DNA of 24,104 nt, from positions 1 to 24,104 of IMG/VR virus record IMGVR_UViG_3300032296_003394; one strand, 5' to 3'. This document shows, one piece after another, positions 1-21,170 of this stretch. The first letter of the stretch is position 1; each line of letters starts with the position of its first letter. This DNA is from a virus. A program made the position numbers and the translations under genes. The notes beneath the pieces are model-generated. The model was not told the DNA's origin. It saw only the letters and a list, made by a program, of their open reading frames with translations, and ran no database searches.

Positions 1-750
1 TAAATCTAAAACATTTAAATCTAATTGTTTGTATGATAAAAAATCTTGATCAAGAAAATTAATATCTAAATCAGTTTTTATTTGTTCTACTTTTGTTGAA
101 TTATCTGTAGATTTTACAGGAGGGGATACAATTAATGTATTATCTATATTAGCTGCATCGATTGATATGATAACAGGTTTTGTTGGAGCAGAATTTTTAT
201 CTGATACAACTGTTGTTTGGAATGCTTGGTTCATTAAAACAAACCCTGCATCAGTAGAAACTTCAATAGCACCTGTAACACAACCAGTAATATCACAACT
301 GGGTAATAAAATAATTGTACTTTTACCTAATTCATCAACAGTCCCGCTAAAATCTGTACCTCGTACAGAAATTGTCGAAGTTGGCGTATTAATGGATACT
401 GTTTGAGGGTTGTGTTTAGCTATTTGACCCGAAGTATATCGAACAGTTCCTAAAGCAAATTTTAAAGCAAGTTTTCCCGTTGATTTGTTAACATCGTACA
501 CAAAATTATCAATAACAAGTTTACTTTGTTCCGATATAGCAACTCGCGTATCATCTTCAAATTTAATATTCAGTTTAGAATTAGCTGTAATAATGGAATC
601 TAGGGATTCTACCGGAAATTGTTCTTTAGTTGGGTATGATTTATTATTCCTATTAATTTCAGCTAATCCTGTTTGATATTCAATTTTCCCTATATCGGAT
701 AAAACGGCTTTCGATACGATCAACAAAAACACAAACGCGAAAATTTGCAT
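1..750 (-). CDS. FecR-domain protein, exported, 3' end outside window
   Basis: An open frame runs from ATG at 750 to the window edge (250 codons, no stop), so the C-terminus is missing. Residues 1-18 look like a Sec signal peptide (hydrophobic IFAFVFLLIV then a small-residue site near AVLS). Residues about 48-135 match the FecR fold: DSIITANSKLNIKF, then DDTRVAISEQSKLVI, then NTPTSTISVRGTDF, which is the hallmark 'TP-A-VRGT-F' end of PF04773. A possible disulfide pair C152/C157 follows. FecR domains usually sit in periplasmic or surface proteins and sense or bind ligands. Here the gene lies downstream of csgF-csgG-curlin, separated only by a homing endonuclease whose stop is 2 bases before this ATG. 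No clear ribosome-binding site precedes the ATG, perhaps because the insertion replaced it. The FecR call is firm; the role is unknown. Confidence 0.8.
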   Translation of the reverse strand, partial: MQIFAFVFLLIVSKAVLSDIGKIEYQTGLAEINRNNKSYPTKEQFPVESLDSIITANSKLNIKFEDDTRVAISEQSKLVIDNFVYDVNKSTGKLALKFALGTVRYTSGQIAKHNPQTVSINTPTSTISVRGTDFSGTVDELGKSTIILLPSCDITGCVTGAIEVSTDAGFVLMNQAFQTTVVSDKNSAPTKPVIISIDAANIDNTLIVSPPVKSTDNSTKVEQIKTDLDINFLDQDFLSYKQLDLNVLDL

Positions 751-752
751 TT

Positions 753-1601
753 TTATGTTAAAATATTTTCTTTAAAGTGTAATAAAAAATCATCAGATTT
801 CATATTTAATCCTGGTGGCAATTTAATATTTAATGTTTTAGCTAATTCTTTTATCTCAAGATATAATTTCCTTTCTGATTTTTGTTTTGATATAGTAAGA
901 AAATGGTGCGTTCCATCATCTAATCGTTTTTTATTCGATTCTGGACCTAAAAGATTATGCGTTCCGTCATCTAATCGTTTTTTATTCGATTCTTTGAGCC
1001 TAACTGCTTGTTTTTGTTGAAAGTTACGATTAAGGAATATGTGAGATCCTTCAGCCAATAATTTTAATTGGACATTTTTTTGAAAATCGGAATCTAGAAA
1101 ATTATGCGTTCCGTCATCTAATCGTTTTTTATTCGATTCTGGACCTAAAAGATTATGCGTTCCATTTAACACCCGTTCTCTTGAATATTTTCCTGAAATT
1201 TCTCCACCTAAAAGATTATGTGTTCCTGCTGCAACTTTTGCATTTTGTTGTTTCCTAACAGTTTCTGAATCACCTCCAGTCAACCCATTTTCTGGTACAA
1301 TATTTGCCCAAAAATCTGAAGCTACAACATCATAAATCTCAGATAGAGTTAATGCAACTGAAATTAATTCATCTATATCTGTATACATTTTAAACCACAA
1401 AGTGGTAACAAATTTAGTTCCGTGTTTTTTTATATGTTTTGACCACCTAATACCAGATCCTTTATATTTTATTGGATCAGATTTAATCGTTTTCCCGAAA
1501 TATTTTAGTCCCGTAACTGAATGTTGTTTGATATAAAGGTATGTTGGTTTAAAATTTAAACGCTGTTGTTCTGTGATAATATAAATATTTGCGCTGGACA
1601 T
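753..1601 (-). CDS. GIY-YIG homing endonuclease with repeated DNA-binding motifs (HEG1)
   Basis: A 282-residue free-standing homing endonuclease. The N-terminal 110 residues form a GIY-YIG nuclease-like domain: YLY (21-23) in place of GIY, YFG (34-36) in place of YIG, the KGSG(I/K)xW segment near 48-53, a conserved Glu (E88 in LSEIYD) and Asn (N100). Residues about 125-235 hold five to six copies of a short motif of the form (D/N)GTHNLLGPESNKKRL, which resembles NUMOD-type DNA-contact repeats. Three copies are near identical at DNA level. ATG at 1601 has a good ribosome-binding site (AGAGGA, 7 bases upstream). The gene, its promoter and leader exactly fill the gap between the curlin stop and the FecR start. 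It keeps the motif tyrosines that the second copy (4551-5201) has partly lost, so it is the better candidate for an active enzyme. Confidence 0.85.
   Translation of the reverse strand: MSSANIYIITEQQRLNFKPTYLYIKQHSVTGLKYFGKTIKSDPIKYKGSGIRWSKHIKKHGTKFVTTLWFKMYTDIDELISVALTLSEIYDVVASDFWANIVPENGLTGGDSETVRKQQNAKVAAGTHNLLGGEISGKYSRERVLNGTHNLLGPESNKKRLDDGTHNFLDSDFQKNVQLKLLAEGSHIFLNRNFQQKQAVRLKESNKKRLDDGTHNLLGPESNKKRLDDGTHHFLTISKQKSERKLYLEIKELAKTLNIKLPPGLNMKSDDFLLHFKENILT
908..1163 (-). repeat. Near-identical tandem units inside HEG1
   Basis: A unit of about 51 bases recurs starting near 908, 959 (partial) and 1106. The copies differ at one or two positions over about 35-50 bases. Each encodes the ESNKKRLDDGTH(N/H) segment. 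The unit is absent from the paralogue at 4551-5201, so it is a recent expansion of the DNA-binding part of HEG1. Confidence 0.85.
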
Positions 1602-1678: not shown

Positions 1679-2269
1679 TTAATTGGATTGATTAACAGTA
1701 ATATTATTGTTAGAACCAGTACTTTCAATTTTTATACTCTTATCCAAAGTTCCGCTTTGAGTTAAATCAATTGTATTACTGTTACCAGTTAAAGTTAAAT
1801 CAGCAGATACAATACCAGAACTTGTACTTGTATGAGTAATAGCATTACTATCACCAGTTACAGTCATTTTACTATTAGTTGTAGCACCAATTGTAGTGTC
1901 AATAGTATTATTATCACCCGATATAGTATGATTGATTGTAGTATTGTTACATGTCACAGCAGTTTTGACTCCACAATTAATTGTTTCTTTATTATCATTA
2001 CCTGTTGTACTTAATGTAACAGTTGTGTTATCACCATTTACGATCAAATCTAATTCATTTCTAGAACCAATTTGTTCAATAGTCGACACATCACTACTTC
2101 CACCAAAAAATGAAGGATTAAGAGCTGTCCCAATACGATTATCAACACCCTGTTGTGTTAATGTAATATCAGATAAACTCCCAACCTGTTCAATAAAAAT
2201 ATCATTAGCAAATGTAGTAGTAGCAAAGAGCATAACAAACATAATCAAATATGTTTGTAAGATTTTCAT
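1679..2269 (-). CDS. Curlin-like secreted repeat protein (CsgA/CsgB-like)
   Basis: A 196-residue protein with a signal peptide (residues 1-21, cleavage after TTFA). The mature part begins with curlin-like motifs: IEQVG (26-30), LTQQGVDNRIG (37-47) and IEQIGSRN (64-71), matching the I-x-Q-x-G-x-x-N pattern of CsgA/CsgB. From residue 78 on, a looser period of about 20-23 residues built on G(D/N)xN-T-(I/V) continues to the C-terminus, with IDLTQSG near 167-173. Composition is Thr/Asn/Ser rich, as in extracellular beta-solenoid amyloids. C99 and C107 are unusual for a curlin. The ATG directly follows the csgG stop, with AAGGA in the end of csgG as ribosome-binding site. It is the likely substrate of the neighbouring CsgG/CsgF. 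It may form fibres or coat the cell or virion; that is inference. Confidence 0.75.
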   Translation of the reverse strand: MKILQTYLIMFVMLFATTTFANDIFIEQVGSLSDITLTQQGVDNRIGTALNPSFFGGSSDVSTIEQIGSRNELDLIVNGDNTTVTLSTTGNDNKETINCGVKTAVTCNNTTINHTISGDNNTIDTTIGATTNSKMTVTGDSNAITHTSTSSGIVSADLTLTGNSNTIDLTQSGTLDKSIKIESTGSNNNITVNQSN

Positions 2270-3046
2270 CTATTTTTCCTTTTTAAATTTCCAAAGACCT
2301 CGTTTTTCCCCTTCAATTATCATAGAATAAACACTGTCTTCAATAGCAACTCTAACACCTTCAGTAATAGGTTCGTTGACGCTATTTCCAACTTCTGCTT
2401 CTAGAGCAGTTACATTACCAGTTCCAATAAACATCATAACACCAGCATCACTAGCAAAACTATAAATCGTTTTAGTTGTTGCCACTGATACTAATACTTC
2501 TCCAGATGAAACAGAAATTAATCTCATCGAGATAGTAATTTGATCAACTCTATATTCTTGGGTGAATCCAAGTTTAAATAACCTTAACCCTATTCCACCC
2601 GTACGAATATCAGAATCGTATCCACTAATGCTACCTGTTACCATTAATCCACTAACTAATAATGGAGGTAATGGTTTAGATTCTTTTCCTTCGTAAACAT
2701 CTCGTTGATTGCGAATTAATTGTCGCTCTTTAACTAAATTATCTAAACCAACTCGTTCAACAACCTTAAACCAATTTTTTGAATCTTGTAATGCTTTGAT
2801 AACAAACGATTCTGCTCCCTGTGGAACAGCTGTTGATAATTGAGCTAATTTGTCTGATGGTTTACGTTGCCCAGTTTTATCAGTAAAATCGTAAATAGAA
2901 ATTGGTATTGCTGGTCCTTCCAATTCTGGTAATTTATTGCTTAATGTGGTTCTTGGTGTTATAGGAACGGGATCTTCTCTCATAATATCCAAAGCAATTT
3001 GAGAACACCCTGTAAGCAATAATATGGATAAAATAATATATTTCAT
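2270..3046 (-). CDS. csgG: CsgG-family outer-membrane curli secretion channel lipoprotein
   Basis: Residues 1-13 plus Cys14 form a lipoprotein signal (lipobox LTGC; Ser at +2 favours the outer membrane). The body follows E. coli CsgG closely: DKTGQRKP (56-63), STAVPQGAESFVIKAL (71-86), NWFKVVER-GL-NLVKERQLIR, SGSISGYDS-type segment (GSISGYDSDI, 138-147), RTGGIGLRL, VDQITISMRLISVSSGEVL, TKTI and NEPITEGVRVAIE, ending RGLW. CsgG forms a nine-subunit pore that exports curlin. Length is 258 against 277 for the E. coli precursor; the C-terminal extension after RGLW is nearly absent. The loop that lines the pore in E. coli (Y51, N55, F56) is changed here. I chose ATG 3046 over TTG 3067 because it gives a proper lipobox and sits 1 base after the csgF stop. 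Confidence 0.95.
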   Translation of the reverse strand: MKYIILSILLLTGCSQIALDIMREDPVPITPRTTLSNKLPELEGPAIPISIYDFTDKTGQRKPSDKLAQLSTAVPQGAESFVIKALQDSKNWFKVVERVGLDNLVKERQLIRNQRDVYEGKESKPLPPLLVSGLMVTGSISGYDSDIRTGGIGLRLFKLGFTQEYRVDQITISMRLISVSSGEVLVSVATTKTIYSFASDAGVMMFIGTGNVTALEAEVGNSVNEPITEGVRVAIEDSVYSMIIEGEKRGLWKFKKEK

Positions 3047-3047
3047 A

Positions 3048-3494
3048 TTAAAACCCAAACTGACCAATAGGAACTATAATATCAGTGGTGTTACCATTAG
3101 ATTCTGTAATTGTTAACGATACATCAGTTGCACCTTTAACCCAATTAATAGATGTTCCCTGAAAATCCATTGTACCTGATGTTGCTCCACTATCAGTAAA
3201 CATTTGATCAGCTAATTGTTTGGATAATTGAGCGTAAATCCTGGACTCAACATTAACTAAAAATTTAGATAAATTGCTATTTTTAGCATCAGCTGCAGCT
3301 TTGGCTATGCCAGCTGCAGCATCATCTTTTATTTTTTGTTTTCGAGCGGATTCTATTTGTTCTAGAGTTATTACTTGAGTTGACCAACCATTTCCCGAAA
3401 ACGTTGGATTATTGAATTCATAAACTAGATTAGAGGCGTTAACATCAATTGAAAAACACATAATAAAAAACAACTTTAATAGGTGTTTTCTCAT
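3048..3494 (-). CDS. csgF: CsgF-family curli assembly factor
   Basis: A 148-residue exported protein. Residues 1-20 are a signal peptide ending VNA. The mature N-terminus reads SNLVYEFNNPTFSGN, matching the E. coli CsgF start (TFQFRNPNFGGN). In E. coli that part plugs into the CsgG barrel and links channel to nucleator. The middle (45-95) is Lys/Ala-rich and helical, and the C-terminal half has a beta pattern (TSINWVKGATDVSLTITE... DIIVPIGQFGF). AGGA lies about 8 bases before the ATG. It sits immediately upstream of csgG, as a functional pair. No CsgE or CsgD homologue is visible in the window. Confidence 0.88.
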   Translation of the reverse strand: MRKHLLKLFFIMCFSIDVNASNLVYEFNNPTFSGNGWSTQVITLEQIESARKQKIKDDAAAGIAKAAADAKNSNLSKFLVNVESRIYAQLSKQLADQMFTDSGATSGTMDFQGTSINWVKGATDVSLTITESNGNTTDIIVPIGQFGF

Positions 3495-3498
3495 ATAA

Positions 3499-3783
3499 TT
3501 ATCCTGATCTTGGACGTTTTGGTTTTGGTGGTTCTTTGATAGGTGTCCGTTCTCTAATTTGTAACACTGTATTTAATTTAGCAGTTAATCGCAACAAATC
3601 CGCATCTAATAAACGTATTCTGTCTATTAGGGCAATTAACTCTTTATTAGCTTCAGCTAAAATCGGATTAATTTCCTCGATAGTAAAAGTCCAAACAAAT
3701 TTGACCATTTTTAACATATATGCACTCGAAATTATCGGAAAACCGTATTTAGAGATTAACTCACCTATTTCTGTAATATCCAT
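3499..3783 (-). CDS. Small membrane/coiled-coil protein A (third of three paralogues)
   Basis: 94 residues. A moderately hydrophobic segment at 14-34, interrupted by Lys25 and Lys28, is followed by an amphipathic helix (EEINPILAEANKELIALIDRIRLL...LNTVLQI, 36-76) and a basic Pro-rich tail (PPKPKRPRSG). Its layout, length and the ALIDRIRLLDADLLRL stretch align with the two genes upstream, so the three look like tandem duplicates. AAGGT precedes the ATG; csgF starts 4 bases after its stop. Function unknown. Candidates are a holin/antiholin set acting with the endolysin at 5202-6098, or inner-membrane partners of the curli channel. Confidence 0.75.
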   Translation of the reverse strand: MDITEIGELISKYGFPIISSAYMLKMVKFVWTFTIEEINPILAEANKELIALIDRIRLLDADLLRLTAKLNTVLQIRERTPIKEPPKPKRPRSG

Positions 3784-3804
3784 TTTTATACCTTATCCAA
3801 AAAT

Positions 3805-4089
3805 CTAATCTCTGCGAGCATCAACTTTTCCATCCGCTCTGGACAATCTATCCAAATCAGGACGCAATCCTAAAACTGATGATATCGTTACGTCAATTTT
3901 TATTAACTCATTAGATGCAGTTTTTACCCTATTTTCTAAAGCCATAACAATTGCTGCCAATGTTCTAACTGATGTAATAACATCACCTAAGACAAATTTT
4001 AATGCAGTAAAAATAAAACTACCTAGAGCACTACTAGCAATAATAGGAATAATAACATCAGAAAAAAAACTTACATATGCTTGATTCAT
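3805..4089 (-). CDS. Small membrane/coiled-coil protein B (second of three paralogues)
   Basis: 94 residues with a clear transmembrane helix at about 9-34 (SDVIIPIIASSALGSFIFTA). An amphipathic helix (36-74) contains ALENRVKTASNELIKID, the counterpart of SMDGRVRQMNVDVLELD in protein C, and a charged tail follows. ATG is 1 base after the stop of protein C, with AAGGA 7 bases upstream. The hydrophobic N-terminus and charged C-terminus fit a small holin-like protein, but no specific family is recognised. Confidence 0.78.
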   Translation of the reverse strand: MNQAYVSFFSDVIIPIIASSALGSFIFTALKFVLGDVITSVRTLAAIVMALENRVKTASNELIKIDVTISSVLGLRPDLDRLSRADGKVDARRD

Positions 4090-4090
4090 A

Positions 4091-4381
4091 TTAATCCTTG
4101 TTCATTTCTGCTGCAACTTCGTGGTGTATTTTAGTAGGTAATGGATCAACTAAAAGAGAAGTTGATACTAATTGATCCAATTCAAGTACATCAACATTCA
4201 TTTGACGAACGCGACCATCCATTGAACGCATTAATCCAGTCATCTTTCTGATTGTTTTAACAACACTACTTAAAACCAATTCAATTGCTTGCATTAAAAA
4301 CCATCCACACACAACAGCAATTGCTATTGGCGCTCCACACTGCTCTACAAGATCAAAAAAATTAGGAACACCTATATCCAT
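4091..4381 (-). CDS. Small membrane/coiled-coil protein C (first of three paralogues)
   Basis: 96 residues. A transmembrane helix at 16-39 (GAPIAIAVVCGWFLMQAIEL) is followed by an amphipathic helix rich in Met and charged residues (42-76) and a short acidic/basic tail. It aligns without large gaps to proteins A and B. AGGA lies 7 bases before the ATG, inside the end of a possible 22-residue reading frame. Being the first full gene after the minus-strand late-like promoter at 4471-4478, it leads the holin-like/curli operon. Holin-like by shape only. Confidence 0.78.
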   Translation of the reverse strand: MDIGVPNFFDLVEQCGAPIAIAVVCGWFLMQAIELVLSSVVKTIRKMTGLMRSMDGRVRQMNVDVLELDQLVSTSLLVDPLPTKIHHEVAAEMNKD

Positions 4382-4550: not shown

Positions 4551-5201
4551 ATGTCCAGCACAAGTATTTATACCGCAAGCCAAATTTCGCGTTCAAATTT
4601 TAAACCTACTTATTTAATGATTAAACAACACGAAATAACTGGATTAAAATATCTATGTAAAACAATAACAAAATATCCTAACCAATATAAAGGTTCCGGT
4701 AAATATTGGAAATCGCATTTGAAACAACACGGTTCGCAATATGTAAAAACTATTTGGTATAAATTGTATACCGATATTGACGAATTAGTTTCTATCGCGT
4801 TAACTTTATCTGAATTATATGATATCGTAGAATCGGATTCCTGGGCTAATTTAACCCCAGAAAATGGATTAGACGGTATTGATGCAAAAACAGCATCAAT
4901 AACCGCAATATCAACTAATAATACCAGATTAAAAAATGGAACGCATTTATTTTTAAATAACGAATTCCAAAGAAATCTCACATTAACCAGAATAAATAAT
5001 AATACGCATAATTTTCAAACAGAACAACATAAAATAGACGTAACTAATAATAATTATAAATTATCTGCTAGACCAGAATATTTAGAATTAAAATTATTAT
5101 ATAAACAATTTAAAGTTAAACAACCTAAATTTTTACATATGAAATCTATAGAAACTCTTAATAAATTAAAATTTGAACTACTAGCTTCTCTTGGAAATTA
5201 A
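4551..5201 (+). CDS. GIY-YIG homing endonuclease paralogue, probably catalytically impaired (HEG2)
   Basis: 216 residues, aligning without gaps to HEG1 over the first 110 or so. The start MSS..IY, FKPTYL.IKQH..TGLKY, YKGSG..W, LYTDIDELVSIALTLSELYD and WAN..PENGL are shared. Two motif residues differ: the GIY-type tyrosine is Met23 (YLM against YLY) and the YIG glycine is Cys36 (YLC against YFG). Y34, E88 and N100 remain. The C-terminal part keeps only two eroded copies of the (N)GTH-F-L repeat, so it is shorter. ATG at 4551 has AGAGGA 7 bases upstream. It lies on the opposite strand to both neighbours and its TAA abuts the endolysin stop. Likely a decaying HEG. Confidence 0.82.
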   Translation: MSSTSIYTASQISRSNFKPTYLMIKQHEITGLKYLCKTITKYPNQYKGSGKYWKSHLKQHGSQYVKTIWYKLYTDIDELVSIALTLSELYDIVESDSWANLTPENGLDGIDAKTASITAISTNNTRLKNGTHLFLNNEFQRNLTLTRINNNTHNFQTEQHKIDVTNNNYKLSARPEYLELKLLYKQFKVKQPKFLHMKSIETLNKLKFELLASLGN

Positions 5202-6098
5202 CTATTTTTTTAACAGAGATCTCGCCAAATTATACATTTTTTGGCGAGAATCTAAACCATGCGTCCCACCATTAATCGCTTTAGTTAAACCCATAAAATC
5301 AAAGTTAACGTCAATAAAACGTTCGCTTAATCTATTTTCTTTCCAGAACCAACAAGCACTCTCCAGAGCCCCGAGTAGTGTTCTGCAATACTCTACAGTT
5401 TCATCTAAAGGTTTACCGATAAATTTAGAAAATTTTGTATAATTATCCTTTCCTGTAATTTGAATAAACCCAGAACCACGATATTTCCACCCATCGCCAC
5501 TAGCTTCCGAACCATTACCCATACGATCGCAATAAACTTTATTAGCGATTTTTTCTGGGTTTCTATGATAAGGTTGAGCTGCTGCTACGGATGGAAAACG
5601 TTTTGGCCAAATTTTACATAGACCCTCGGCAGAATAGTTTAAATTTTCCATCATTACTGAAAATTGAGCGCTTTCTTGGCTACATTGCCCAAGAAAACAC
5701 GCAACTCTTTCAGTTCCTGTAATATCATATTTTGGGAGAACCGCATTTAGCGCAGCAGTTAATCCGCTAGGATCTTTATGTTTAGGGAATAACGCTTTAA
5801 TTTGTTCTAGAGATATTACTTGTTTACCGGAAATAGCAGGTTGTGGTTTTTCTGCTACAGAAGGCGTTGCAGTACCGTCTGGAAAATCTTTCACAGCTTT
5901 TCTAGTAGCTGGACCATCAAGACCATCAGCAGTGATTTTTGCACCGCGAGCAATTAATTTTTTTTGTAACTCAAAAATTTTCGGATCGCCTTTTGGTGAC
6001 ATTTTTGGTTCAGTAACTGATGGAACTACAACATCAGAGAATGATTTAGAAACTTCTTCAAGTTTTTCGTCCAATAACCCTTTTAACATATCTAGCAT
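5202..6098 (-). CDS. GH19 (chitinase-like) endolysin with N-terminal peptidoglycan-binding domain
   Basis: 298 residues. About 37-72 fit a PG_binding_1 domain (KIFELQKKLIARGAKI, then DGLDGPATRKAVKDF). A Pro/Ala-rich linker leads to a glycoside hydrolase 19 domain at about 95-296: FLGQCSQESAQF with the likely catalytic acid E142, MMENLNYSAEGLCKIWPKRF with E151 as second candidate, KYRGSGFIQITGKDNY (206-220), and INGGTHGLDSRQ (275-286). This family cleaves the glycan strand of the cell wall in phage lysis. There is no signal peptide or signal-anchor helix, so it needs a holin; the three small membrane proteins 0.8 kb downstream on the same strand are candidates. ATG at 6098 has AGAGG. Only a weak late-like motif (CCTAAATA) is seen upstream. 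Confidence 0.92.
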   Translation of the reverse strand: MLDMLKGLLDEKLEEVSKSFSDVVVPSVTEPKMSPKGDPKIFELQKKLIARGAKITADGLDGPATRKAVKDFPDGTATPSVAEKPQPAISGKQVISLEQIKALFPKHKDPSGLTAALNAVLPKYDITGTERVACFLGQCSQESAQFSVMMENLNYSAEGLCKIWPKRFPSVAAAQPYHRNPEKIANKVYCDRMGNGSEASGDGWKYRGSGFIQITGKDNYTKFSKFIGKPLDETVEYCRTLLGALESACWFWKENRLSERFIDVNFDFMGLTKAINGGTHGLDSRQKMYNLARSLLKK

Positions 6099-11576: not shown

Positions 11577-12593
11577 TTACATATCGTCTTTAGTGGCTGC
11601 TGTATGATAATTGCCAGAAGATACTTGTCTCCAGTTAGTTCCGCCTACTATGGTCTGTACTGGTGAACTCTTATCTGTTGTTGTATTATCGCCTAATTGA
11701 CCATTAACATTATAACCCCAAGACCATAGAGTTCCATCGGTTTTAATCGCTGCTGTATGATAAGTTCCACAGGCGACTTGTCGCCAGTTAGTTCCACCTG
11801 TTACGGTTTGGACTGGTGAACTCTTAGCTGTTGTTGTATTATTACCTAATTGACCATAGAAATCATTACCCCAAGTCCATAGAGTTCCATCGGTTTTAAT
11901 CGCTGCTGTATGATAGCTACCGCAAGAAACCTGTCGCCAGTTAGTTCCACCTGCTATGGTTTGGACTGGTGAACTCTTATTGGTTGTTGTATTATCACCT
12001 AATTGACCATTAGTATTATAACCCCAAGACCATAGAGTTCCATCGGTTTTAATCGCTGCTGTATAATAATTGCAAGCAGCAACCTGTCGCCAGTTAGTTC
12101 CACCAGCGATTGTTTGTACTGGCGAACTCTTATCTGTTATTGTATTATCACCTAATTGACCATTATTATTAACTCCCCATAACCATAGAGTTCCATCTGT
12201 TTTAACCGCTGCTGTATGGGATACTCCAGCTGCAACTTGTCGCCAATTGTTGCCACCTACTACGGTTTGGACTGGTGAACTCTTATTGGTTATTGTATTA
12301 TCACCTAATTGACCAGTACTATTATATCCCCAAGACCATAATGTTCCGTCTGTTTTGATCGCTGCTGTATGATTGGCGCTACCGCAAGAAACCTGTCGCC
12401 AGTTAGTTCCACCTGCGATGGTTTGAACTGGACTGGATTTATTAACAGAGGTATTATCACCTAATCTGCCACTACCATTATTACCCCAGTTCCACAAACC
12501 ACCTTCAGAAAATAAATCTCTGGGTACGAGTAAATCTCCTAAATCAGCGCCACCACCATCTGTTGTACTTACTGTAAATCCAATTCGAGCCAT
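11577..12593 (-). CDS. RCC1-repeat beta-propeller protein 1 (putative receptor-binding)
   Basis: 338 residues: a short N-terminal region (MARIGFTVSTTDGGGADLGD to about 32) and six RCC1 units of about 50 residues, each LW-WG-N-GQLGDNT-KSSPVQT-GG-NWRQV-G-HTAAIKTDGT. Such units fold into blades of a propeller. The units are nearly constant apart from a few positions after WGYN, after GDNT and after RQV. The N-terminal ADLGDLLVPRDL resembles the start of protein 2, suggesting a common virion anchor. No signal peptide. AAAGGA lies before the ATG, 1 base after the upstream stop. Likely a tail adhesin by context; RCC1 proteins are otherwise eukaryotic regulators or bacterial surface proteins. Confidence 0.88.
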   Translation of the reverse strand: MARIGFTVSTTDGGGADLGDLLVPRDLFSEGGLWNWGNNGSGRLGDNTSVNKSSPVQTIAGGTNWRQVSCGSANHTAAIKTDGTLWSWGYNSTGQLGDNTITNKSSPVQTVVGGNNWRQVAAGVSHTAAVKTDGTLWLWGVNNNGQLGDNTITDKSSPVQTIAGGTNWRQVAACNYYTAAIKTDGTLWSWGYNTNGQLGDNTTTNKSSPVQTIAGGTNWRQVSCGSYHTAAIKTDGTLWTWGNDFYGQLGNNTTTAKSSPVQTVTGGTNWRQVACGTYHTAAIKTDGTLWSWGYNVNGQLGDNTTTDKSSPVQTIVGGTNWRQVSSGNYHTAATKDDM

Positions 12594-12594
12594 C

Positions 12595-13080
12595 TTAGTT
12601 TCCTTTTAACCTGTACACTTGTACTAACCCTTCTTCCAAACTATGAAATAACCAAGGTCTGAATATAACCCCTTCATTTGGTTCCAGTAATATATTAGTG
12701 TGATAATCCCAATCCATAAAATCCTGATAATTAAAATGATACCCATCAAGAGCAGTTTTAGCACCGCTTAAATGGTGATACAAATTAAATGTAGTTCTTT
12801 CTAGTGCAACAATAAATACCCAATCATGCAGCGATTCAAAACTTTCAAAATGAATACCAAATGTTGGTTTACGGAATATACCGGAATATTTCTCATCAAC
12901 AGTTACTTCTTCAGCAAGAAGTTTTGAAAATACTGGATCTAGATCAGGTATGACTAAATTAAAATTATCAATTTCTTCACCGTATTCTTTTTCTACAAAT
13001 GGTAGAGAATATGCAACATTTCTTAAAGTTGAAATATCTTCTTCTTTGAAAAAATTATCTGCTTGTAATAATTTAATCAA
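12595..13080 (-). CDS. Possible double-stranded beta-helix protein (2OG-Fe(II) oxygenase-like)
   Basis: 161 residues. The C-terminal half has the look of a cupin/2-oxoglutarate oxygenase: a possible metal HFE (in FGIHFESF), then NLYHHLSG, WDYHTNILLEPNEGVIFRPW and a final LFHSLEEGLVQVYRLKG where the His and Arg would bind iron and cosubstrate. The HxD/E motif is not certain. Such oxygenases are frequent near tail-fibre genes of T4-like phages and may hydroxylate fibre proteins. The start is TTG at 13080, overlapping the RCC1 2 stop, with GGGGGA 8 bases upstream; no better start is seen. It lies between two RCC1 genes and is probably coupled to both. Confidence 0.5.
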   Translation of the reverse strand: MIKLLQADNFFKEEDISTLRNVAYSLPFVEKEYGEEIDNFNLVIPDLDPVFSKLLAEEVTVDEKYSGIFRKPTFGIHFESFESLHDWVFIVALERTTFNLYHHLSGAKTALDGYHFNYQDFMDWDYHTNILLEPNEGVIFRPWLFHSLEEGLVQVYRLKGN

Positions 13081-14306
13081 AAATCATCCCCCATTTCTTG
13101 GATTGCAGTTGAGTGGTTGCCGCCACAGGAAATCTGTTTCCAATTGTTTCCGCCTACTATGGTCTGTACTGGTGAACTTTTACTGGTTGTTGTATTATCA
13201 CCTAATTGACCATATAGATTATAACCCCAAGACCATAGAGTTCCATCAGTTTTAATCGCTGCTGTATGATCAGTACCACAGGCGACTTGTCGCCAGTTAG
13301 TTCCGCCTACTACGGTTTGGACTGGCGAACCTTTACTGGCAGTCGTATTATCGCCTAATTGACCATTAGTATTATAACCCCAAGTCCATAATGTTCCATC
13401 TGTTTTAATCGCTGATGTGTGGGAGGAACCACTGGCGACTTGTCGCCAGTTAGTTCCACCTGCGATTGTTTGGACTGGACTGGACTTATTTACAGAGGTA
13501 TTATCACCTAATTGACCATATAGATTATAACCCCAAGACCATAGAGTTCCATCAGTTTTAATCGCTGCTGTATAAATGGCACCACTAGCAACTTGTCGCC
13601 AGTTAGTTCCGCCTACTACGGTTTGGACTGGCGAACTTTTACTGGTAGTCGTATTATCGCCTAATTGTCCATATATATTAAAACCCCAAGTCCATAGAGT
13701 TCCATCTGTTTTGATTGCTGCTGTATGGGAGTTACCACAGGCGACTTGTCGCCAGTTAGTTCCACCTGCGATTGTTTGGACTGGTGAACTCTTATTGGTT
13801 AATGTATTATCACCTAATTGTCCATTACTATTAAAACCCCATAACCATAGAGTTCCATCTGTTTTGATTGCTGCTGTATGGGAGGAACCACCGGAAACTT
13901 GCCGCCAGTTAGTTCCACCAGCGATTGTTTGGACTGGTGAACTCTTACTGGTTACTGTATTATCACCTAATTGACCAACACCATTATAACCCCATAACCA
14001 TAGAGTTCCATCCGTTTTAATCGCTACTGTATGATTGGCGCCACCGGAAACTTGTCGCCAGTTAGTTCCACCAGCGATTGTTTGGACTGGACTGGAGTTA
14101 TTTACAGAAGTGTTATCGCCTAATTGACCATATAGATTATAACCCCAAGTCCACAAACCAGCAGTTTTAATGTTATTACCCAACCCATTTAAATACGGAT
14201 AAACCTCCATTAGGTAACTCTTGGTTACAAATTTTGTACCAAGGTCAACATTATTCTCTGCTGAACTTTCTTGGAATCCGCTATTAAATTGATTATTTGT
14301 AGACAT
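13077..14306 (-). CDS. RCC1-repeat beta-propeller protein 2 (putative receptor-binding)
   Basis: 409 residues with an N-terminal 48 residues (MSTNNQFNSGFQESSAENNV, then DLGTKFVTKSYLMEVYP) of the type that anchors fibre proteins, followed by seven RCC1 units, the number of blades in a closed RCC1 propeller. The first and fifth unit share GDNTSVN, also found in the other two proteins, suggesting shuffling of units. ATG 14306 overlaps the stop of the DUF4376 gene (TAATG). Its own stop overlaps the TTG of the oxygenase-like gene. Presumed tail adhesin. Confidence 0.88.
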   Translation of the reverse strand: MSTNNQFNSGFQESSAENNVDLGTKFVTKSYLMEVYPYLNGLGNNIKTAGLWTWGYNLYGQLGDNTSVNNSSPVQTIAGGTNWRQVSGGANHTVAIKTDGTLWLWGYNGVGQLGDNTVTSKSSPVQTIAGGTNWRQVSGGSSHTAAIKTDGTLWLWGFNSNGQLGDNTLTNKSSPVQTIAGGTNWRQVACGNSHTAAIKTDGTLWTWGFNIYGQLGDNTTTSKSSPVQTVVGGTNWRQVASGAIYTAAIKTDGTLWSWGYNLYGQLGDNTSVNKSSPVQTIAGGTNWRQVASGSSHTSAIKTDGTLWTWGYNTNGQLGDNTTASKGSPVQTVVGGTNWRQVACGTDHTAAIKTDGTLWSWGYNLYGQLGDNTTTSKSSPVQTIVGGNNWKQISCGGNHSTAIQEMGDDF

Positions 14307-15004
14307 TATACAGGCAATCCTAAATCACTAGGTGTTAGTAATACTGGTTCCAAATCTGTATTATCAGAAACCAAACTTAAATTATTTAATTCTTCTAATG
14401 TTGTACAAGCATCAATTGCAGCAATTTTAGCAGACTCCCAATCAAATACAGATTGTACATGAACAGAAACTGCTTCAACAATTGTTGCTAAATCAGCATT
14501 AGATAATGTTAAAAATTCTGAACCAAATTTCCAGTTGACACCATCTTTACCTAATTGATATGCCTGAAGATAAAGACCTCTATCTTCTCGTGTAGTCAAT
14601 ACGGATAATTGTTTATCTTGAATAATAACGGTTGTACCTTTTACTTCGTATCGGTAACGATTAGCAGCAATAATAGGTTTCAATTCTTCTTTGACAACTT
14701 CTACAGTTTTATCTTCAACATCATAATACATTTCTGCAGACGTTTCTGAGAAGTTGTATTTCGGACCAACTAATCGTTGAATTTTTGGATTATATTCCGA
14801 TGTTATTCCAATATCAGTAACAGGTATAATTCTAGCAATATCGTTTACGATAATTGCTTCACCTCTATCATTTGATAAAGGTACTTTAAAATCTATATCA
14901 AGATCATCTCTTAGTACTGACTGGAAGAAACTTGGTCTCCAGTTCATTGGACCAAGATGTACGAAATCCATGTTATCGTGTGTTTTTTCTATAAGTAAAT
15001 ACAT
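14306..15004 (-). CDS. DUF4376-type tail-fibre-associated protein
   Basis: 232 residues. The C-terminal half (ANRYRYEVKGTTVIIQDKQL, TTREDRGLYLQAYQL, VNWKFGSEFLTLSNADLATI, VHVQSVFDWE) matches the DUF4376 domain of tail-fibre and tail-fibre-assembly proteins. The N-terminal half (MYLLIEKTHDNMDFVHLGPM) is a phage domain I do not recognise. An in-frame upstream start at 15061 would overlap the RCC1 3 gene by 58 bases; ATG 15004 forms TAATG with its stop, as seen at 14306, so I chose it. Likely a fibre cap or assembly factor for the RCC1 proteins on either side. Confidence 0.72.
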   Translation of the reverse strand: MYLLIEKTHDNMDFVHLGPMNWRPSFFQSVLRDDLDIDFKVPLSNDRGEAIIVNDIARIIPVTDIGITSEYNPKIQRLVGPKYNFSETSAEMYYDVEDKTVEVVKEELKPIIAANRYRYEVKGTTVIIQDKQLSVLTTREDRGLYLQAYQLGKDGVNWKFGSEFLTLSNADLATIVEAVSVHVQSVFDWESAKIAAIDACTTLEELNNLSLVSDNTDLEPVLLTPSDLGLPV

Positions 15005-16182
15005 TATAATACTTGTCCTATGTCTGAATATTGTGTTGCTGTTGTATGTTCCCGACCGCAAGAAACCTGTTTCCAGTTAGTTCCGCCTGCTATGGTTTGG
15101 ACTGGTGAACTCTTACTGGTGGTTGTTGTATTATCACCTAATTGACCACTACCACCTATACCCCAAGACCATAGAGTTCCATCTGTTTTAATCGCTGCTG
15201 TATGACGAAAGCCGCTGGCGACAAGTCGCCAGTTATTTCCACCTGCTACGGTCTGCACTGGACTGGATTTATTAACAGAGGTATTATCTCCTAATTGGCC
15301 ATAAATACCTTCACCCCAAGTCCATAGAGTTCCATCGGTTTTAATCGCTGCTGTATGATAGCTACCGCAAGAAACCTGTTTCCAATTGTTGCCACCTGCT
15401 ATGGTTTGGACTGGTGAACTTTTACTGGTTGTTGTGCTATCACCTAATTGACCATTTGTATTCCATCCCCATAACCATAGAGTTCCATCGGTTTTGATCG
15501 CTGCTGTATGACTACCGCAAGCTACTTGTCGCCAGTTAGTTCCACCTGCTATGGTTTGGACTGGTGAACTCTTACTGGTTGTTGTATTATCTCCCAATTT
15601 ACCATTAAAATTACTACCCCAAGTCCATAGAGTTCCATCGGTTTTGATCGCTGCTGTATGACTACCGCAAGCTACTTGTCGCCAGTTAGTTCCACCAGCG
15701 ATTGTTTGGACTGGTGAACTTTTATTGGTAGTCGTATTATCACCTAATTGACCACTCCCATTAGAACCCCATAACCATAATGTTCCATCGGTTTTAATCG
15801 CTGCTGTATTATAATTGCCAGCAGCAACCTGTTTCCAGTTAGTTCCGCCAGCGATTGTTTGGACTGGTGAACTCTTATTGGTTGTTGTATTATCACCTAA
15901 GTTACCATAGCCATTATCATTAGAACCCCATAACCATAGAGTTCCATCCGTTTTAATCGCTGCTGTATGAAAATCGCCAACATATACTTGTTTCCAATTG
16001 TTGCCACCTGCTATGGTTTGTACTGGTGAACTCTTAGCGGTTGTTGTATTATCGCCTAAATCACCAGAGGAATTATAACCCCAGCCCCACAAACCGCCAT
16101 TGGCATACCTGTCAATGAGGTCTGTTGTAGTCATGAAATACTTATCAAAATCTCCAGTCTGTGCGGATTGAAACCCAGACAT
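15004..16182 (-). CDS. RCC1-repeat beta-propeller protein 3 (putative receptor-binding)
   Basis: 392 residues: N-terminal MSGFQSAQTGDFDKYFMTTT followed by DLIDRY, then seven RCC1 units. Two adjacent units (3 and 4) share the shortened VACGSHTAAIKTDGT form lacking one residue pair, a sign of recent duplication of one blade. The second unit carries a 2-residue insertion (NDNGYGNLGD). GGAGT precedes the ATG, 20 bases after the long fibre gene. No signal peptide and no catalytic motif. Same inferred role as the other two. Confidence 0.88.
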   Translation of the reverse strand: MSGFQSAQTGDFDKYFMTTTDLIDRYANGGLWGWGYNSSGDLGDNTTTAKSSPVQTIAGGNNWKQVYVGDFHTAAIKTDGTLWLWGSNDNGYGNLGDNTTTNKSSPVQTIAGGTNWKQVAAGNYNTAAIKTDGTLWLWGSNGSGQLGDNTTTNKSSPVQTIAGGTNWRQVACGSHTAAIKTDGTLWTWGSNFNGKLGDNTTTSKSSPVQTIAGGTNWRQVACGSHTAAIKTDGTLWLWGWNTNGQLGDSTTTSKSSPVQTIAGGNNWKQVSCGSYHTAAIKTDGTLWTWGEGIYGQLGDNTSVNKSSPVQTVAGGNNWRLVASGFRHTAAIKTDGTLWSWGIGGSGQLGDNTTTTSKSSPVQTIAGGTNWKQVSCGREHTTATQYSDIGQVL

Positions 16183-16202: not shown

Positions 16203-19200
16203 TTATACTTTATTTATTTGTTTTTTCAACTCATCAATCTGTTGTTGCTGCTCTTTAATCGCTTCAATTAATAAACCAATAATGTTGCCGTATGTGATAC
16301 TTTTGTTCCCCTCAGGATCTGTATAAACAACCTCTGGAATAATCTCTTCAGCTTCCTGTGCAATTAAACCAATAGATGGTTGTTTCGATTCTTTTAAATC
16401 ATACGAAACGCCACGCAACGCTAAAGTTTTTTCCAAAGCACCAGTTAATGTTTGGATATTTTCTTTTTTGTTCGCATCAGAAAGAGAATTAAAGATAACA
16501 GAACTTAATGTTCCAGTACTTGGATTAAATGTTAAATTTGTACTAGAAACGTTTGCAGTTAATGACCCGCTAGATGCAGAAGTAATAACAGGATAATAAG
16601 TTGCATTTGTTGCTGTATCATCAGTTAACGAAATAGAAACAGTATTTGCTTTATTGTAAGCTGCATTAGCTTGATTGAATCCTGCCTGCCCAACCCCTAA
16701 AGCAACGTTGGCTTGGTTAAACGCATTGGTTGCTTGATCATAACTTAATTTAACACTGTTAGGTGTAGCAGCTGTTGTTGTACTTGTACTAGAAACACTA
16801 TCTGTCAACTGTACAATACCAGCCAACGTTGTGCTAGCAGTATTAGCAATTAAAGTTGTTATACCAGAACCGTTAAATGAACCAACATTAAAACCGTTAC
16901 CAAATGTTAAACTATTAAAAGTATTGGCAGAAATTGTTATATTTGCGCTGCCATCAAAACTTGTTCCATTGATTAATCTAGCAGATTGGAAAGCTGTTGC
17001 TGTATTTGCATTGCCATAATTATTTCCAATAACAGTTCCAACTCTCAATGTATCATAAACAGCACCAGAAAAATCAACAGTATTGTTAGCGAATTCATTA
17101 ACAACGTTCGAAAATAATTTCCAAACACCATCATGAGCATCTCTAACCAATCCAGTATGTTGATATCCAGTAGGCGCTGCGGTAAAATGACCAACAAAAC
17201 CAATATCGTTTAAATTAGCTGGATTATTATTTGCTAGATAAATTAATGAATCATTAATTGTTAAATTATTAGCACTTAATGTAGTTACATTTCCACCAAG
17301 ATACACATTTCCAGTAATTGTTAGATCATTATTGATTGTTACTGCACCAGAAATTGTACCGCCTGAACTAGCAAATTTAGTATTTGCAGTATTATAAGCT
17401 GCATTAGCTTGAGTAAATGCTAATTGACCAACCCCTAGAGCAACGTTGGCTTGTGTATAAGCTGCATTAGCTCTAGAAAACGCTGTTTGACCAACCGCTA
17501 GAGCAACATTAGCTTGTGCATAAGCACTATTAGCTTGAGTAAATGCTAATTGACCAATTAACGAATTATTAGCCTGAGTATATGCTGCATTCGCTTGGTT
17601 AAATGCGTTAGTTGCTTGGTCATAAGCTAAATTAACACTGTTAGGTGTAGCAGCTGTTGTTGTACTTGTACTAGAAACACTATCTGTTAACTGTACAATA
17701 CCAACTCCAGTTGTACTGGCAGTATTAGCAGTCAAGGTCACAGCACTTGACCCATCGAATAATCCAGGATTAAAACCGTCGCCGAATGTTAAATCATTAA
17801 AAGTATTAGCTAAAATTGTTACATCTGCACTACCATTAAAACTTGTTCCATTAATCAATCTAGAAGTTTGTAGAACAGTAGCTGTATTGGAGTTACCATA
17901 CAAACTGCCATTAAACACAGTAGAAGTTACAGAAGATAAACCAGCAATTGTTGTGTTAGTTGAACCAATGTATAGAGGTGTTGATCCTAATGTTATTGCG
18001 GAATTTGCTTTATCAAACGATGCTCGAGCAACAGCAACAGCAGTGTTTGCTTGAACAAACGCATTGGTTGCTTGATCATAACTCAATTTAACACTGTTAG
18101 GGGTTGCAGCTGTTGTTGTACTTGTACTAGATACTGAATCAGTCAACTGTACGATACCAGCTCTAGTTGTGCTAGCAGTATTAGCAGTTATAGTTACTGC
18201 ACTAGAACCGTCATATAACCCAGGATTAAAACCAGTACCTATCGTTAATGGTTTTGAAACATTAGCGGCATATCCATCTATAGAAGAAATACCTGTCAAA
18301 GCAATTAAACCAGCACTTCTATTTAACGCAATTGATGTATTACCAACATAAAGAGATGAATTACCAAACACCGCACTAGGAATTGTTCCTGTTAAATTTG
18401 CAGAGGGTAGATTGGTTAAATTAGCCCCGCTAACATTACCAATTGCAGAAATCCACCTACCAGAAGTAATTGTTCCAACTGATGTTAATGATGACCCAGT
18501 AACGCTGTTTCCAAGAGTAGTTGATGATAAAACATCAGTACCATTAATTTTAAATGTTTTACCAGAAGCAATATTTAAATTTTCTGAGCTAGACCAACTT
18601 GCAATGCTTGCAGTATTAGACCAAGTAAAAGATTTATTTGTTGCTCCAATAACTGTAAGACCACCACCATCAGCTGTTACATCTGTTGGAGCAACAACAT
18701 TTGCTAATTCTATATTTTTATCATTAACTCGTATTGTTGTTGAGTTAATAGTAGTTGTTGTTCCTTGAACAGAAAGATTTCCTGAAATATTTACATCATT
18801 CCCAAACGCAACAGTATTATTAAAATTTGTCTTACCATCAACGTAACTTTTCATTGCGTTATTGGCATTGTTTGTGTATGTTTGCGCAAATGTATTTGCT
18901 AAATCGGTGTAAGCTCTAGCAGCTGTTAAAGTTATACCATCATTTGCTTGAAGGAAAGTATTTGCATTATTAGTTCTTGTTGTATTATAGGTGTTGGCTA
19001 AATCGGTGTAAGCTCTAGCAGCTGTTAAAGTTATACCATCATTTGCTTGAAGGAAAGTATTCGCTATATCTAATTCTTTTTGTGAAATAACTTGATAGAA
19101 TGTACTTGTTTCTACATCTTTAATCTGCCAAATTTTACCAGCATTATACCATCTTAATACAGCAGTATTACCGATATTTAAAATTGTATTTGGTTCACCA

Positions 19201-21170
19201 ATACCACGATTAACAATAATATCTGTGCTAGGTGAAATGGTTGAACCAGTATTTGATTGGAATATATATGATGCACTATCAGTTGCAGAAGAACCATAGG
19301 AAATAAATGTTCCAGTTACACTAAGATTACCAGTAACCAAATCTTGCGCTGCTAAAATGTTAAATGTAGTATTAGGTAATCTTACCACATTATTTGATGT
19401 AAAAATTGGTAAAAATTTACCATCAGCATAAGATCTAGCAGCTGCTAAAGTTAATCCATCATTTGCTTGAAGGAAAGTATTAGCTCCAATTAAAGCAACA
19501 TTGCCGAAATTATTAGCTAAATCGGTGTAAGCTCTAGCGCGAGATAAAGTTATACCATCATTTGCTTGAAGGAAAGTATTAGCTCCAATTAAAGCAACAT
19601 TGCCGAAATTATTAGCTAAATCGGTGTAAGCTCTAGCACGAGATAAGGTTATACCATCATTTGCTTGAAGGAAAGTGTTAGCTGCAATTAGAGCTAGATT
19701 AGCAAAATTATTAGCTCTATCGGTATATCCTTGCAAGAATGTGTTAGCGTTATCGGTTCTTGTTGTATTATAGGTGTTGGCTAAATCGGTGTAAGCTCTA
19801 GCGCGAGATAAGGTTATACCATCATTTGCTTGAAGGAAAGTATTCGCACTAATTAGAGCTAGATTAGCAAAATTATTAGCTCTATCTGCATAACCCTGTA
19901 AGAACGTATTTGCATTATCGGTTCTTGTTGTATTATAGGTGTTGGCTAAATCGGTGTAAGCTCTAGCACGAGATAAAGTTATACCATCATTTGCTTGAAG
20001 GAAAGTGTTAGCTGCAATTAGAGCTAGATTAGCAAAATTATTCGCTCTATCTGTATATCCCTGTAAGAACGTATTTGCATTATCGGTTCTTGTTGTGTTG
20101 AACGTATTAGCTCTATCTGCATAACCTTGCAAGAACGTATTTGCATTATCGGTTCTTGTTACATTAAACGAATTGGCTTTATTGGTATAATCTTGCAAGA
20201 ACGTATTAGCATTATTAGTTCTTGTTGTATTGAACGTATTAGCTCTATCTGCATAACCTTGCAAGAACGTGTTAGCATTATTTGTATAACCCTGCAAGAA
20301 CGTGTTAGCGTTATCAGTTTTTGTTACATTAAATGAATTGGCTTTATTTGTATAATCTTGTAAGAACGTGTTAGCGTTGTCGGTTCTTGTTGTATTATAG
20401 GTGTTGGCTTTATTTGTATAACCCTGCAAGAACGTGTTGGCGTTATCGGTTCTTGTTACATTAAATGAATTGGCTTTATTTGTATAATCTTGTAAGAACG
20501 TGTTAGCGTTATCAGTTTTTGTTACATTAAACGAATTGGCTTTATTGGTATAATCTTGTAAGAACGTGTTAGCGTTTAGTATATCTTCAGTAGATACTAT
20601 TTTGTATAATTGACCATTACTGCTGTATTTGACATATGCATTAGCTGTATTAAATATTACTGAATTATTAACAGTTAAAAATTCAGAAAAGGTATTTGAC
20701 GCCCAAGCATAATTATTTGATCTGATAGATTCAGAAATTACAAGATTATTACCTTGAATCAACTCATTAGATTTTATTAATGTATTTGCAATCACTGTGC
20801 CGTTTAAAATAGAAACAGCATTTGTCAATAATGAAGTATTTGATCTAATAGAACCAGATGATAATATAGAAGCATTAGAAGCAATATTACCTGAAGCAAC
20901 TAAACTTAATGGATCTGTAATAGTTATTGTATTAGAAACTAAAGTTGGAATTTGAATTTTTACGAATCCGCTACCGCTAAAGGTCGTGTTACCAGTAAAT
21001 GCAGCTGAATTCGAAACTGAAAGACCTAATCCAGAAGAAAGTAAATTTAATGTTCCGCTAGTCTTATTAAAATCACCTGAATTTAACGTATTTACATTAT
21101 CAACCAATTGGTTAGTTGATATTAACCAATGTGAAAATGTATTTGAATAATTAATCTGAGATATAGCCAC
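16203..21170 (-). CDS. Long tail fibre with 20-residue repeats and C-terminal S74 chaperone
   Basis: 1655 residues. After an N-terminal beta-rich part (about 1-195), residues about 196-400 are tandem units of about 20 residues, NANTFLQ(G/D)YT(N/D)(K/R)AN followed by a short variable stretch and RTD. Longer units with ANDGITLSRARAYTDLAN follow up to about 760. The middle has fibre modules (GNVSGANLTNLPSANLTGTI; NPGLFDGSSAVTLTANTAST) and AYTQANVALGVGQ repeats. The C-terminal 92 residues are an S74 intramolecular chaperone beginning SDANKKENI at about 1564, with Ser and Lys (+5) placed as in the self-cleaving endosialidase type, and ending in a coiled coil. The start is GTG 21170 with AAGGGA upstream. 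Probably a trimeric long fibre trimmed after folding. Confidence 0.88.
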   Translation of the reverse strand: MAISQINYSNTFSHWLISTNQLVDNVNTLNSGDFNKTSGTLNLLSSGLGLSVSNSAAFTGNTTFSGSGFVKIQIPTLVSNTITITDPLSLVASGNIASNASILSSGSIRSNTSLLTNAVSILNGTVIANTLIKSNELIQGNNLVISESIRSNNYAWASNTFSEFLTVNNSVIFNTANAYVKYSSNGQLYKIVSTEDILNANTFLQDYTNKANSFNVTKTDNANTFLQDYTNKANSFNVTRTDNANTFLQGYTNKANTYNTTRTDNANTFLQDYTNKANSFNVTKTDNANTFLQGYTNNANTFLQGYADRANTFNTTRTNNANTFLQDYTNKANSFNVTRTDNANTFLQGYADRANTFNTTRTDNANTFLQGYTDRANNFANLALIAANTFLQANDGITLSRARAYTDLANTYNTTRTDNANTFLQGYADRANNFANLALISANTFLQANDGITLSRARAYTDLANTYNTTRTDNANTFLQGYTDRANNFANLALIAANTFLQANDGITLSRARAYTDLANNFGNVALIGANTFLQANDGITLSRARAYTDLANNFGNVALIGANTFLQANDGLTLAAARSYADGKFLPIFTSNNVVRLPNTTFNILAAQDLVTGNLSVTGTFISYGSSATDSASYIFQSNTGSTISPSTDIIVNRGIGEPNTILNIGNTAVLRWYNAGKIWQIKDVETSTFYQVISQKELDIANTFLQANDGITLTAARAYTDLANTYNTTRTNNANTFLQANDGITLTAARAYTDLANTFAQTYTNNANNAMKSYVDGKTNFNNTVAFGNDVNISGNLSVQGTTTTINSTTIRVNDKNIELANVVAPTDVTADGGGLTVIGATNKSFTWSNTASIASWSSSENLNIASGKTFKINGTDVLSSTTLGNSVTGSSLTSVGTITSGRWISAIGNVSGANLTNLPSANLTGTIPSAVFGNSSLYVGNTSIALNRSAGLIALTGISSIDGYAANVSKPLTIGTGFNPGLYDGSSAVTITANTASTTRAGIVQLTDSVSSTSTTTAATPNSVKLSYDQATNAFVQANTAVAVARASFDKANSAITLGSTPLYIGSTNTTIAGLSSVTSTVFNGSLYGNSNTATVLQTSRLINGTSFNGSADVTILANTFNDLTFGDGFNPGLFDGSSAVTLTANTASTTGVGIVQLTDSVSSTSTTTAATPNSVNLAYDQATNAFNQANAAYTQANNSLIGQLAFTQANSAYAQANVALAVGQTAFSRANAAYTQANVALGVGQLAFTQANAAYNTANTKFASSGGTISGAVTINNDLTITGNVYLGGNVTTLSANNLTINDSLIYLANNNPANLNDIGFVGHFTAAPTGYQHTGLVRDAHDGVWKLFSNVVNEFANNTVDFSGAVYDTLRVGTVIGNNYGNANTATAFQSARLINGTSFDGSANITISANTFNSLTFGNGFNVGSFNGSGITTLIANTASTTLAGIVQLTDSVSSTSTTTAATPNSVKLSYDQATNAFNQANVALGVGQAGFNQANAAYNKANTVSISLTDDTATNATYYPVITSASSGSLTANVSSTNLTFNPSTGTLSSVIFNSLSDANKKENIQTLTGALEKTLALRGVSYDLKESKQPSIGLIAQEAEEIIPEVVYTDPEGNKSITYGNIIGLLIEAIKEQQQQIDELKKQINKV
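18880..20580 (-). repeat. Tandem coding repeats in the long fibre gene
   Basis: About 60-base units encoding NANTFLQ-Y-(K/R)AN-(F/Y)N-TRTD dominate 20080-20580. A longer composite unit of about 150 bases encoding ANDGITLSRARAYTDLAN plus NNFANLALIAANTFLQ recurs several times between 18890 and 20080. Copies are often identical over tens of bases. Confidence 0.9.

Follow-up and report, generated by a model that had tools for sequence, protein, structure and literature searches.

A paralogous family of one-helix membrane proteins encoded with the curli genes of aquatic phages

Organisation of the curli operon in the window

The sequence under study is a 24.1-kb virus record, referred to in its whole length as the window, in which three small genes, here called h1, h2 and h3, are followed by a set of curli genes (Table 1). 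The order of transcription is h1, h2, h3, csgF, csgG, csgA, fecR, with intergenic gaps of 1 nt between h1 and h2, 21 nt between h2 and h3 and 4 nt between h3 and csgF. The start of csgG was read from the sequence as a lipoprotein start (MKYIILSILLLTGCS); the listed open reading frame opens at an upstream TTG (3067).

Table 1. Genes at the curli locus of the window, with the best supporting match for each
Feature	Coordinates	Strand	Remarks
fecR-domain protein	1..750	-	PF04773 1.1e-10; 3' end truncated at window edge
homing-endonuclease-like ORF	753..1601	-	csgA/fecR interval; phrog_12324 1e-11
curlin-repeat protein (csgA/B type)	1679..2269	-	PF07012 2.6e-7, three repeats
csgG	about 2270..3046	-	PF03783 2.3e-47
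csgF	3048..3494	-	PF10614 3.6e-18
h3	3499..3783	-	94 aa, member B of universal pair; phrog_18771 1.6e-18
h2	3805..4089	-	94 aa, member A of universal pair; phrog_18771 3.7e-23
h1	4091..4381	-	96 aa one-helix membrane protein, third paralog; phrog_18771 4.6e-13
homing-endonuclease-like ORF	4551..5201	+	endolysin/h1 interval; phrog_12324 6.8e-4
endolysin (peptidoglycan-binding + GH19-like)	5202..6098	-	phrog_181 1.1e-67

A first-pass annotation of this DNA had described three tandem genes for proteins of 94-96 residues standing between the endolysin and csgF, and all three reading frames were confirmed, on one strand and in that interval, which also holds an oppositely oriented homing-endonuclease-like ORF before h1. 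The Pfam matches of the endolysin (PF01471 2.6e-4 and PF00182 7.5e-4) both lie under the curated cut-offs. An Rfam scan of the window found no RNA element, promoter-like sites were no more frequent than at shuffle level and a PADLOC run gave no match.

The products of the two homing-endonuclease-like ORFs are 47% identical, and related ORFs stand at varied operon sites in close relatives (L006 6369-7223; L021 6304-6930, between h2 and h3). Elsewhere in the window, three large and apparently paralogous ORFs with RCC1-like repeats (LWxWGxNxxGQLGDNT...), possibly tail-associated, lie at 11577-12593, 13077-14306 and 15004-16182, and two very long repetitive proteins with NANTFLQ... repeats are encoded at 16203-21170 and 21220-24042, both ending in a common stretch that resembles an intramolecular chaperone (SDANKKENIQTL...IGLIAQEAEEIIPEVV).

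Homology and duplication history of h1, h2 and h3

The only strong family match for h1, h2 and h3 is phrog_18771 (PHROGs v4, unknown function), significant over most of the profile and matched by all 22 family members examined; HTVC008M gp011/gp012 and Melnitz gp97/gp98 belong to the same family. In BLASTP with single sequences h3 matched h1 (21% identity, E=0.057), and no match was obtained between h1 and h2 or between h2 and h3. Profile-profile comparison using 12-30 members per family gave E-values of 1.2e-21 for h1-h2, 1.2e-14 for h2-h3 and 2.3e-6 for h1-h3, with 71-81 columns aligned, compared to best values of 2.9e-4, 1.5e-4 and 1.3e-3 respectively for column shuffles that retained the hydrophobic pattern (40 per pair). 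The three proteins are thus true paralogs, with homology above that of hydropathy-preserving controls. The first-pass view that they align weakly but end to end, and so look duplicated and diverged, is borne out by these E-values and by phrog_18771, and the pairwise profile comparison which it had proposed as a check returned homology and not unrelated known families.

Across all three proteins the residues most often shared are two of the N-terminal motif (G and P), one helix G, the arginine of the (D/N)R(V/I) core and a leucine late in the coiled coil; in addition h2 has a conserved C-terminal ...DGKxDARRD tail and h3 a core of ALIDRIRxLDxDLxRL. A profile search of the PDB gave generic coiled coils only (best E 0.023), and the sole NCBIfam match was a weak coiled-coil similarity to a short lysis-protein model (0.011). 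YvrJ (PF12841) and the “holin” family phrog_4898 share with the h family the first membrane helix and the GFP motif at the N-terminus but leave the coiled coil and tail unmatched, and PF12841 scored below its gathering cut-off (h3 12.3 versus 29.5 bits; best E 0.012, with matches in 4 of 22 members). Proteins of the TatA/TatB type, which occur as several paralogs, have a single N-out helix and, after it, an amphipathic helix in the cytoplasm. The h proteins resemble this plan, but with a long continuous helix instead of the L-shaped hinge of Tat, and the Pfam TatA/B/E model was not among the matches listed for any h member at E up to 0.5-1.

In a tree of 71 rows built on a 94-column alignment, h3 forms a single clade (support 100/100) and h1 a single clade (100/99) nested within h2, with h1 and h2 together supported at 100/100; the internal details are poorly settled because the alignment has only 94 columns. 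As the h3 clade is separate and h1 lies within h2, the tree points to an ancestral h2+h3 pair, old and obligate, of which h1 is a later h2 copy. The cultured phages HTVC008M and Melnitz differ from the window clade in having two copies, the third copy of the latter being derived from h2. The h1 gene was found in one freshwater phage clade (33 viral contigs) and the h2/h3 pair is far wider (at least 595 relatives).

Among the strongly conserved h2 positions, 7 are retained by h1 yet lost from h2 within its clade (N-terminal motif, MNxD), 10 are retained by same-clade h2 and lost from h1 (DNR core, C-terminal DARRD tail), 10 are retained in both and 1 is lost in both. These counts are descriptive, and such complementary retention looks like a division of labour, in which h1, a duplicate of h2, and its parent would now share out the ancestral h2 features. 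The dN/dS values of 0.07-0.30 show purifying selection on the h genes. The trio may offer a small natural example of how a membrane complex acquires a third subunit through duplication.

Association with phage curli modules

The h2/h3 pair accompanies phage curli genes in hundreds of aquatic phages, which suggests that it is probably an unrecognised part of the curli machine and not a holin. Where csgG was flanked by at least 7.5 kb on each side (31 loci), h genes were present on the same contig in 30, including contigs of 288-349 kb; they lay within the locus in 26, as a pair elsewhere on the contig in 3, and the remaining one was the L033 contig, for which h had already been found. The sole fully flanked csgG locus without h was L307, a 31-kb contig fragment. 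Synteny with csgFG in other phages, another of the checks proposed at first pass, holds as stable physical linkage. Conversely, CsgG was present in 28 of 29 and 23 of 27 h-bearing records, the records lacking it being contigs of 10.8-33 kb. Pairing is obligate: loci found with the h3 of HTVC008M carried both h2 and h3 in 75 of 75 cases, and long records held exactly two or three h copies (22/22).

This linkage persists through rearrangement. At least four gene orders occur, namely h2-h3-csgF-csgG, h genes convergent with a cyclase/csg block, h genes downstream of csgA, and h3-csgF-h2-csgG; the last, an unusual arrangement with csgF placed between both h genes, was seen at L223 9995-11053 and L313 6810-8825. 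In many lineages h is transcribed apart from csgFG. Nine loci (L012, L016, L019, L020 and L030-L034) that had been taken as h without csgFG were dropped as such, since whole-record searches located csgFG on the same contig, in opposite orientation, in all except L031, a record which ends soon after h and has no csgFG on it. In L158, L175 and L177, all of them fragments, csgFG does not follow the h2-h3 pair; the gene after the pair in L175 resembles a desaturase.

In the 30 dereplicated lineages compared, h had the curli genes and a CHASE2 cyclase (PF05226 4.5e-37, PF00211 1.9e-18) as its stable neighbours, the cyclase being present in all 66 loci in which h and csgG were accompanied by 7 kb or more of downstream sequence. 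The window has csgF, csgG, curlin repeats and FecR in common with the published pelagiphage curli/type VIII secretion (T8SS) module (PMC7029224, PMC9599517, PMC9004378); the CHASE2 adenylate cyclase of that module was seen in relatives of the window, and the window differs from the published modules in having an endolysin in front. The endolysin is a subclade-specific neighbour, outside the stable curli module.

Presence and absence of the h family follow those of the phage curli genes. Among 50,697 phage records, the h holders (HTVC008M and four Melnitz records) were the holders of a close, full-length csgG, and the sister pelagimyophage Mosig had neither h nor csg genes. HTVC008M and Melnitz carry the block running from h2 to the cyclase after the ssDNA-binding-protein gene, a point at which Mosig goes directly to structural genes. 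No T8SS-bearing podophage was recognised among the collected loci. Bacterial genomes were scanned with the h3 alignment as query, the mixed h alignment being too divergent. A collection of 84,980 species yielded four MAG contigs with the family, three of which also carry csg or curlin genes and the fourth of which (L158) has genes that look T4-type phage-like. Of 385 alphaproteobacterial genomes, one matched clearly (the MAG itself) and one marginally, and no h was found near the csgF loci of the other genomes, with about 3.3 kb covered per locus. By these searches the family is absent from the sampled bacterial curli loci and is phage-only.

Earlier papers have probably met these proteins under other names. 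Two hypothetical proteins of the same size are listed beside csgFG (PMC7029224), and a histidine kinase, short and diverged, has been reported always before csgF, sometimes as two (PMC9599517). Orthologs of h2 and h3 directly precede csgF in HTVC008M and Melnitz (in HTVC008M an annotated ORF of 41 codons separates h3 from csgF), and therefore, on this indirect identification, the “histidine kinase” is probably the h family, which would call for correction of that label; the h proteins are thus probably either the “two hypothetical proteins” or the “HK” of these reports. Earlier work had not recognised them as a single family of phage-only paralogs. Curli genes are carried widely by aquatic phages, and the uses proposed for them in print are lysis timing, sibling capture and uptake, with CsgG suggested as a pinholin-like lysis timer (PMC9004378); a component found in the phage modules and absent from the sampled bacterial ones offers a handle on what phages use them for.

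Predicted form and possible role of the h proteins

AlphaFold2 modelled h2 as one continuous helix from residue 3 to 73 (pLDDT 84.6) and h3 as helices 3-13 and 15-79 (pLDDT 85.4), with pTM values of 0.41-0.48 for the single-helix models. Hydropathy of the cytoplasmic part peaked at a 3.5-residue period in h1, h2 and h3 (shuffle p 0.008, 0.058 and 0.005 respectively), and Lys/Arg residues were more numerous after the helix than before it in 70 of 71 rows. Both the heptad period and the excess of charge behind the helix suggest coiled coils oriented N-out, C-in, so that each h protein is predicted to have a short N-terminus outside, of which some 12-18 residues would be exposed in the periplasm, a single transmembrane segment and an extended coiled coil in the cytoplasm. 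In the window clade h3 has a weak transmembrane region, with a KxxK inside it, and its net charge showed no clear orientation bias.

Between phages of the h1 clade the h proteins share 62-100% identity, and CsgF/CsgG fall to 34-50%. Identities correlated among the three h proteins (r 0.55-0.84) and for CsgF with CsgG (0.93), with values of about 0 across the two groups, all of these being descriptive because the 91 pairs are non-independent. Over 121 lineages the contrast was softer (h2-h3 r=0.84, CsgF-CsgG 0.89, across groups 0.58-0.62). Obligate pairing, this strong co-variation and the heptad coiled coil make a complex of different subunits plausible. We judge it slightly more probable than not that h1-h3 are a paralogous single-pass inner-membrane hetero-oligomer, a fixed and phage-only part of the phage curli module, and not a lysis holin. 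The h2/h3 pair would pack together in most phages and the h1/h2/h3 trio in the window clade, and the resulting complex would be part of the same type VIII secretion module as csgF, csgG, curlin, FecR and the CHASE2 cyclase, where it may face the cytoplasm as a scaffold for, or a regulator of, either curli export or the membrane cyclase.

The first-pass annotation had offered as one possibility a holin with antiholins. On this reading h2 and h3 (plus h1) would time lysis with the adjacent endolysin. The size and tandem pairing of the proteins are compatible with this, the endolysin lies directly upstream of h1 in the window subclade, and the N-terminus of h3 (residues 4-50) resembles phrog_4898, labelled holin, at up to 6.6e-7. 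That similarity is genuine but covers the N-terminal membrane part, and phrog_4898 also gave matches in Bacillus subtilis in the control panel, so the holin label is unspecific. An endolysin adjoins h in just 5 of 30 lineages (the window subclade and a few others), and the h family is lost together with curli in Mosig. Separate holin-like genes were found in 10 of 25 h-bearing records (5 above the Pfam cut-off, with some PF11351 matches in other records under it), several of them near an endolysin, and several h-bearing genomes have separate holin-endolysin cassettes 12-85 kb from h, which disfavours the holin and antiholin reading. In G032, for example, the endolysin at 36 kb has a GTA-type holin (7.2e-10) 1 kb away and h lies at 122 kb, and G036 and G040 follow the same pattern with h about 57 kb and about 15 kb from holin and endolysin. 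Judged by partnership with an endolysin and freedom from a second holin, the h family does not qualify, and a holin role is in our view unlikely. A gene for a 74-aa membrane protein lies directly 3' of h3 in L016 (6545-6769), with a weak match to a holin/anti-holin PHROG (0.0013) that speaks for lysis, and a similar ORF is present in L012 (7650-7874).

More doubtful still is a signalling role, either as the reported phage histidine kinase or as regulators of the CHASE2 cyclase. The published position and description of the kinase and the constant presence of the cyclase, which in many loci adjoins h3 on the opposite strand, would fit with this, but members have only about 80-150 aa and do not qualify as histidine kinases (HisKA/H-box His plus HATPase_c), HisKA and HATPase being absent from 22 of 22 by Pfam. 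Neither h2 nor h3 has a conserved His (at most 33% and 10%, respectively, in any column), both conserved His of h1 fall in its divergent C-terminal tail, and co-variation of h with the cyclase (r 0.45-0.47) was the weakest of all pairs. The idea of an inner-membrane platform that docks physically onto the CsgG/CsgF pore and substitutes for CsgE, which is absent from the published pelagiphage curli regions (PMC9599517), draws on the genomic linkage of h to csgFG but is very improbable, as it is set against the short predicted periplasmic part and the constancy of h while CsgFG is exchanged in the h1 clade.

Of the first-pass proposal that an inner-membrane complex works with the CsgG pore, the genomic linkage thus stands, and a CsgG-specific contact is argued against by the uncorrelated identities in the h1 clade and by a coiled coil predicted to be cytoplasmic. 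Returning to the hetero-oligomer within the curli module, the high identity of the h proteins beside low CsgF/CsgG identity, with r about 0, suggests that CsgFG has been swapped beneath a constant h cassette. A more tentative proposal, which we would put forward as possible rather than probable, is that curli-borrowing phages added an inner-membrane complex of their own invention, phage-only and absent from the sampled bacterial curli systems, which went from two to three subunits by duplication and labour division, as a self-contained unit with swappable CsgFG. Between the window and L006, dS was 0.03-0.13 for csgF, csgG and csgA and 0.60-0.79 for h1, h2 and h3, a contrast which points to a recombination break between h3 and csgF.
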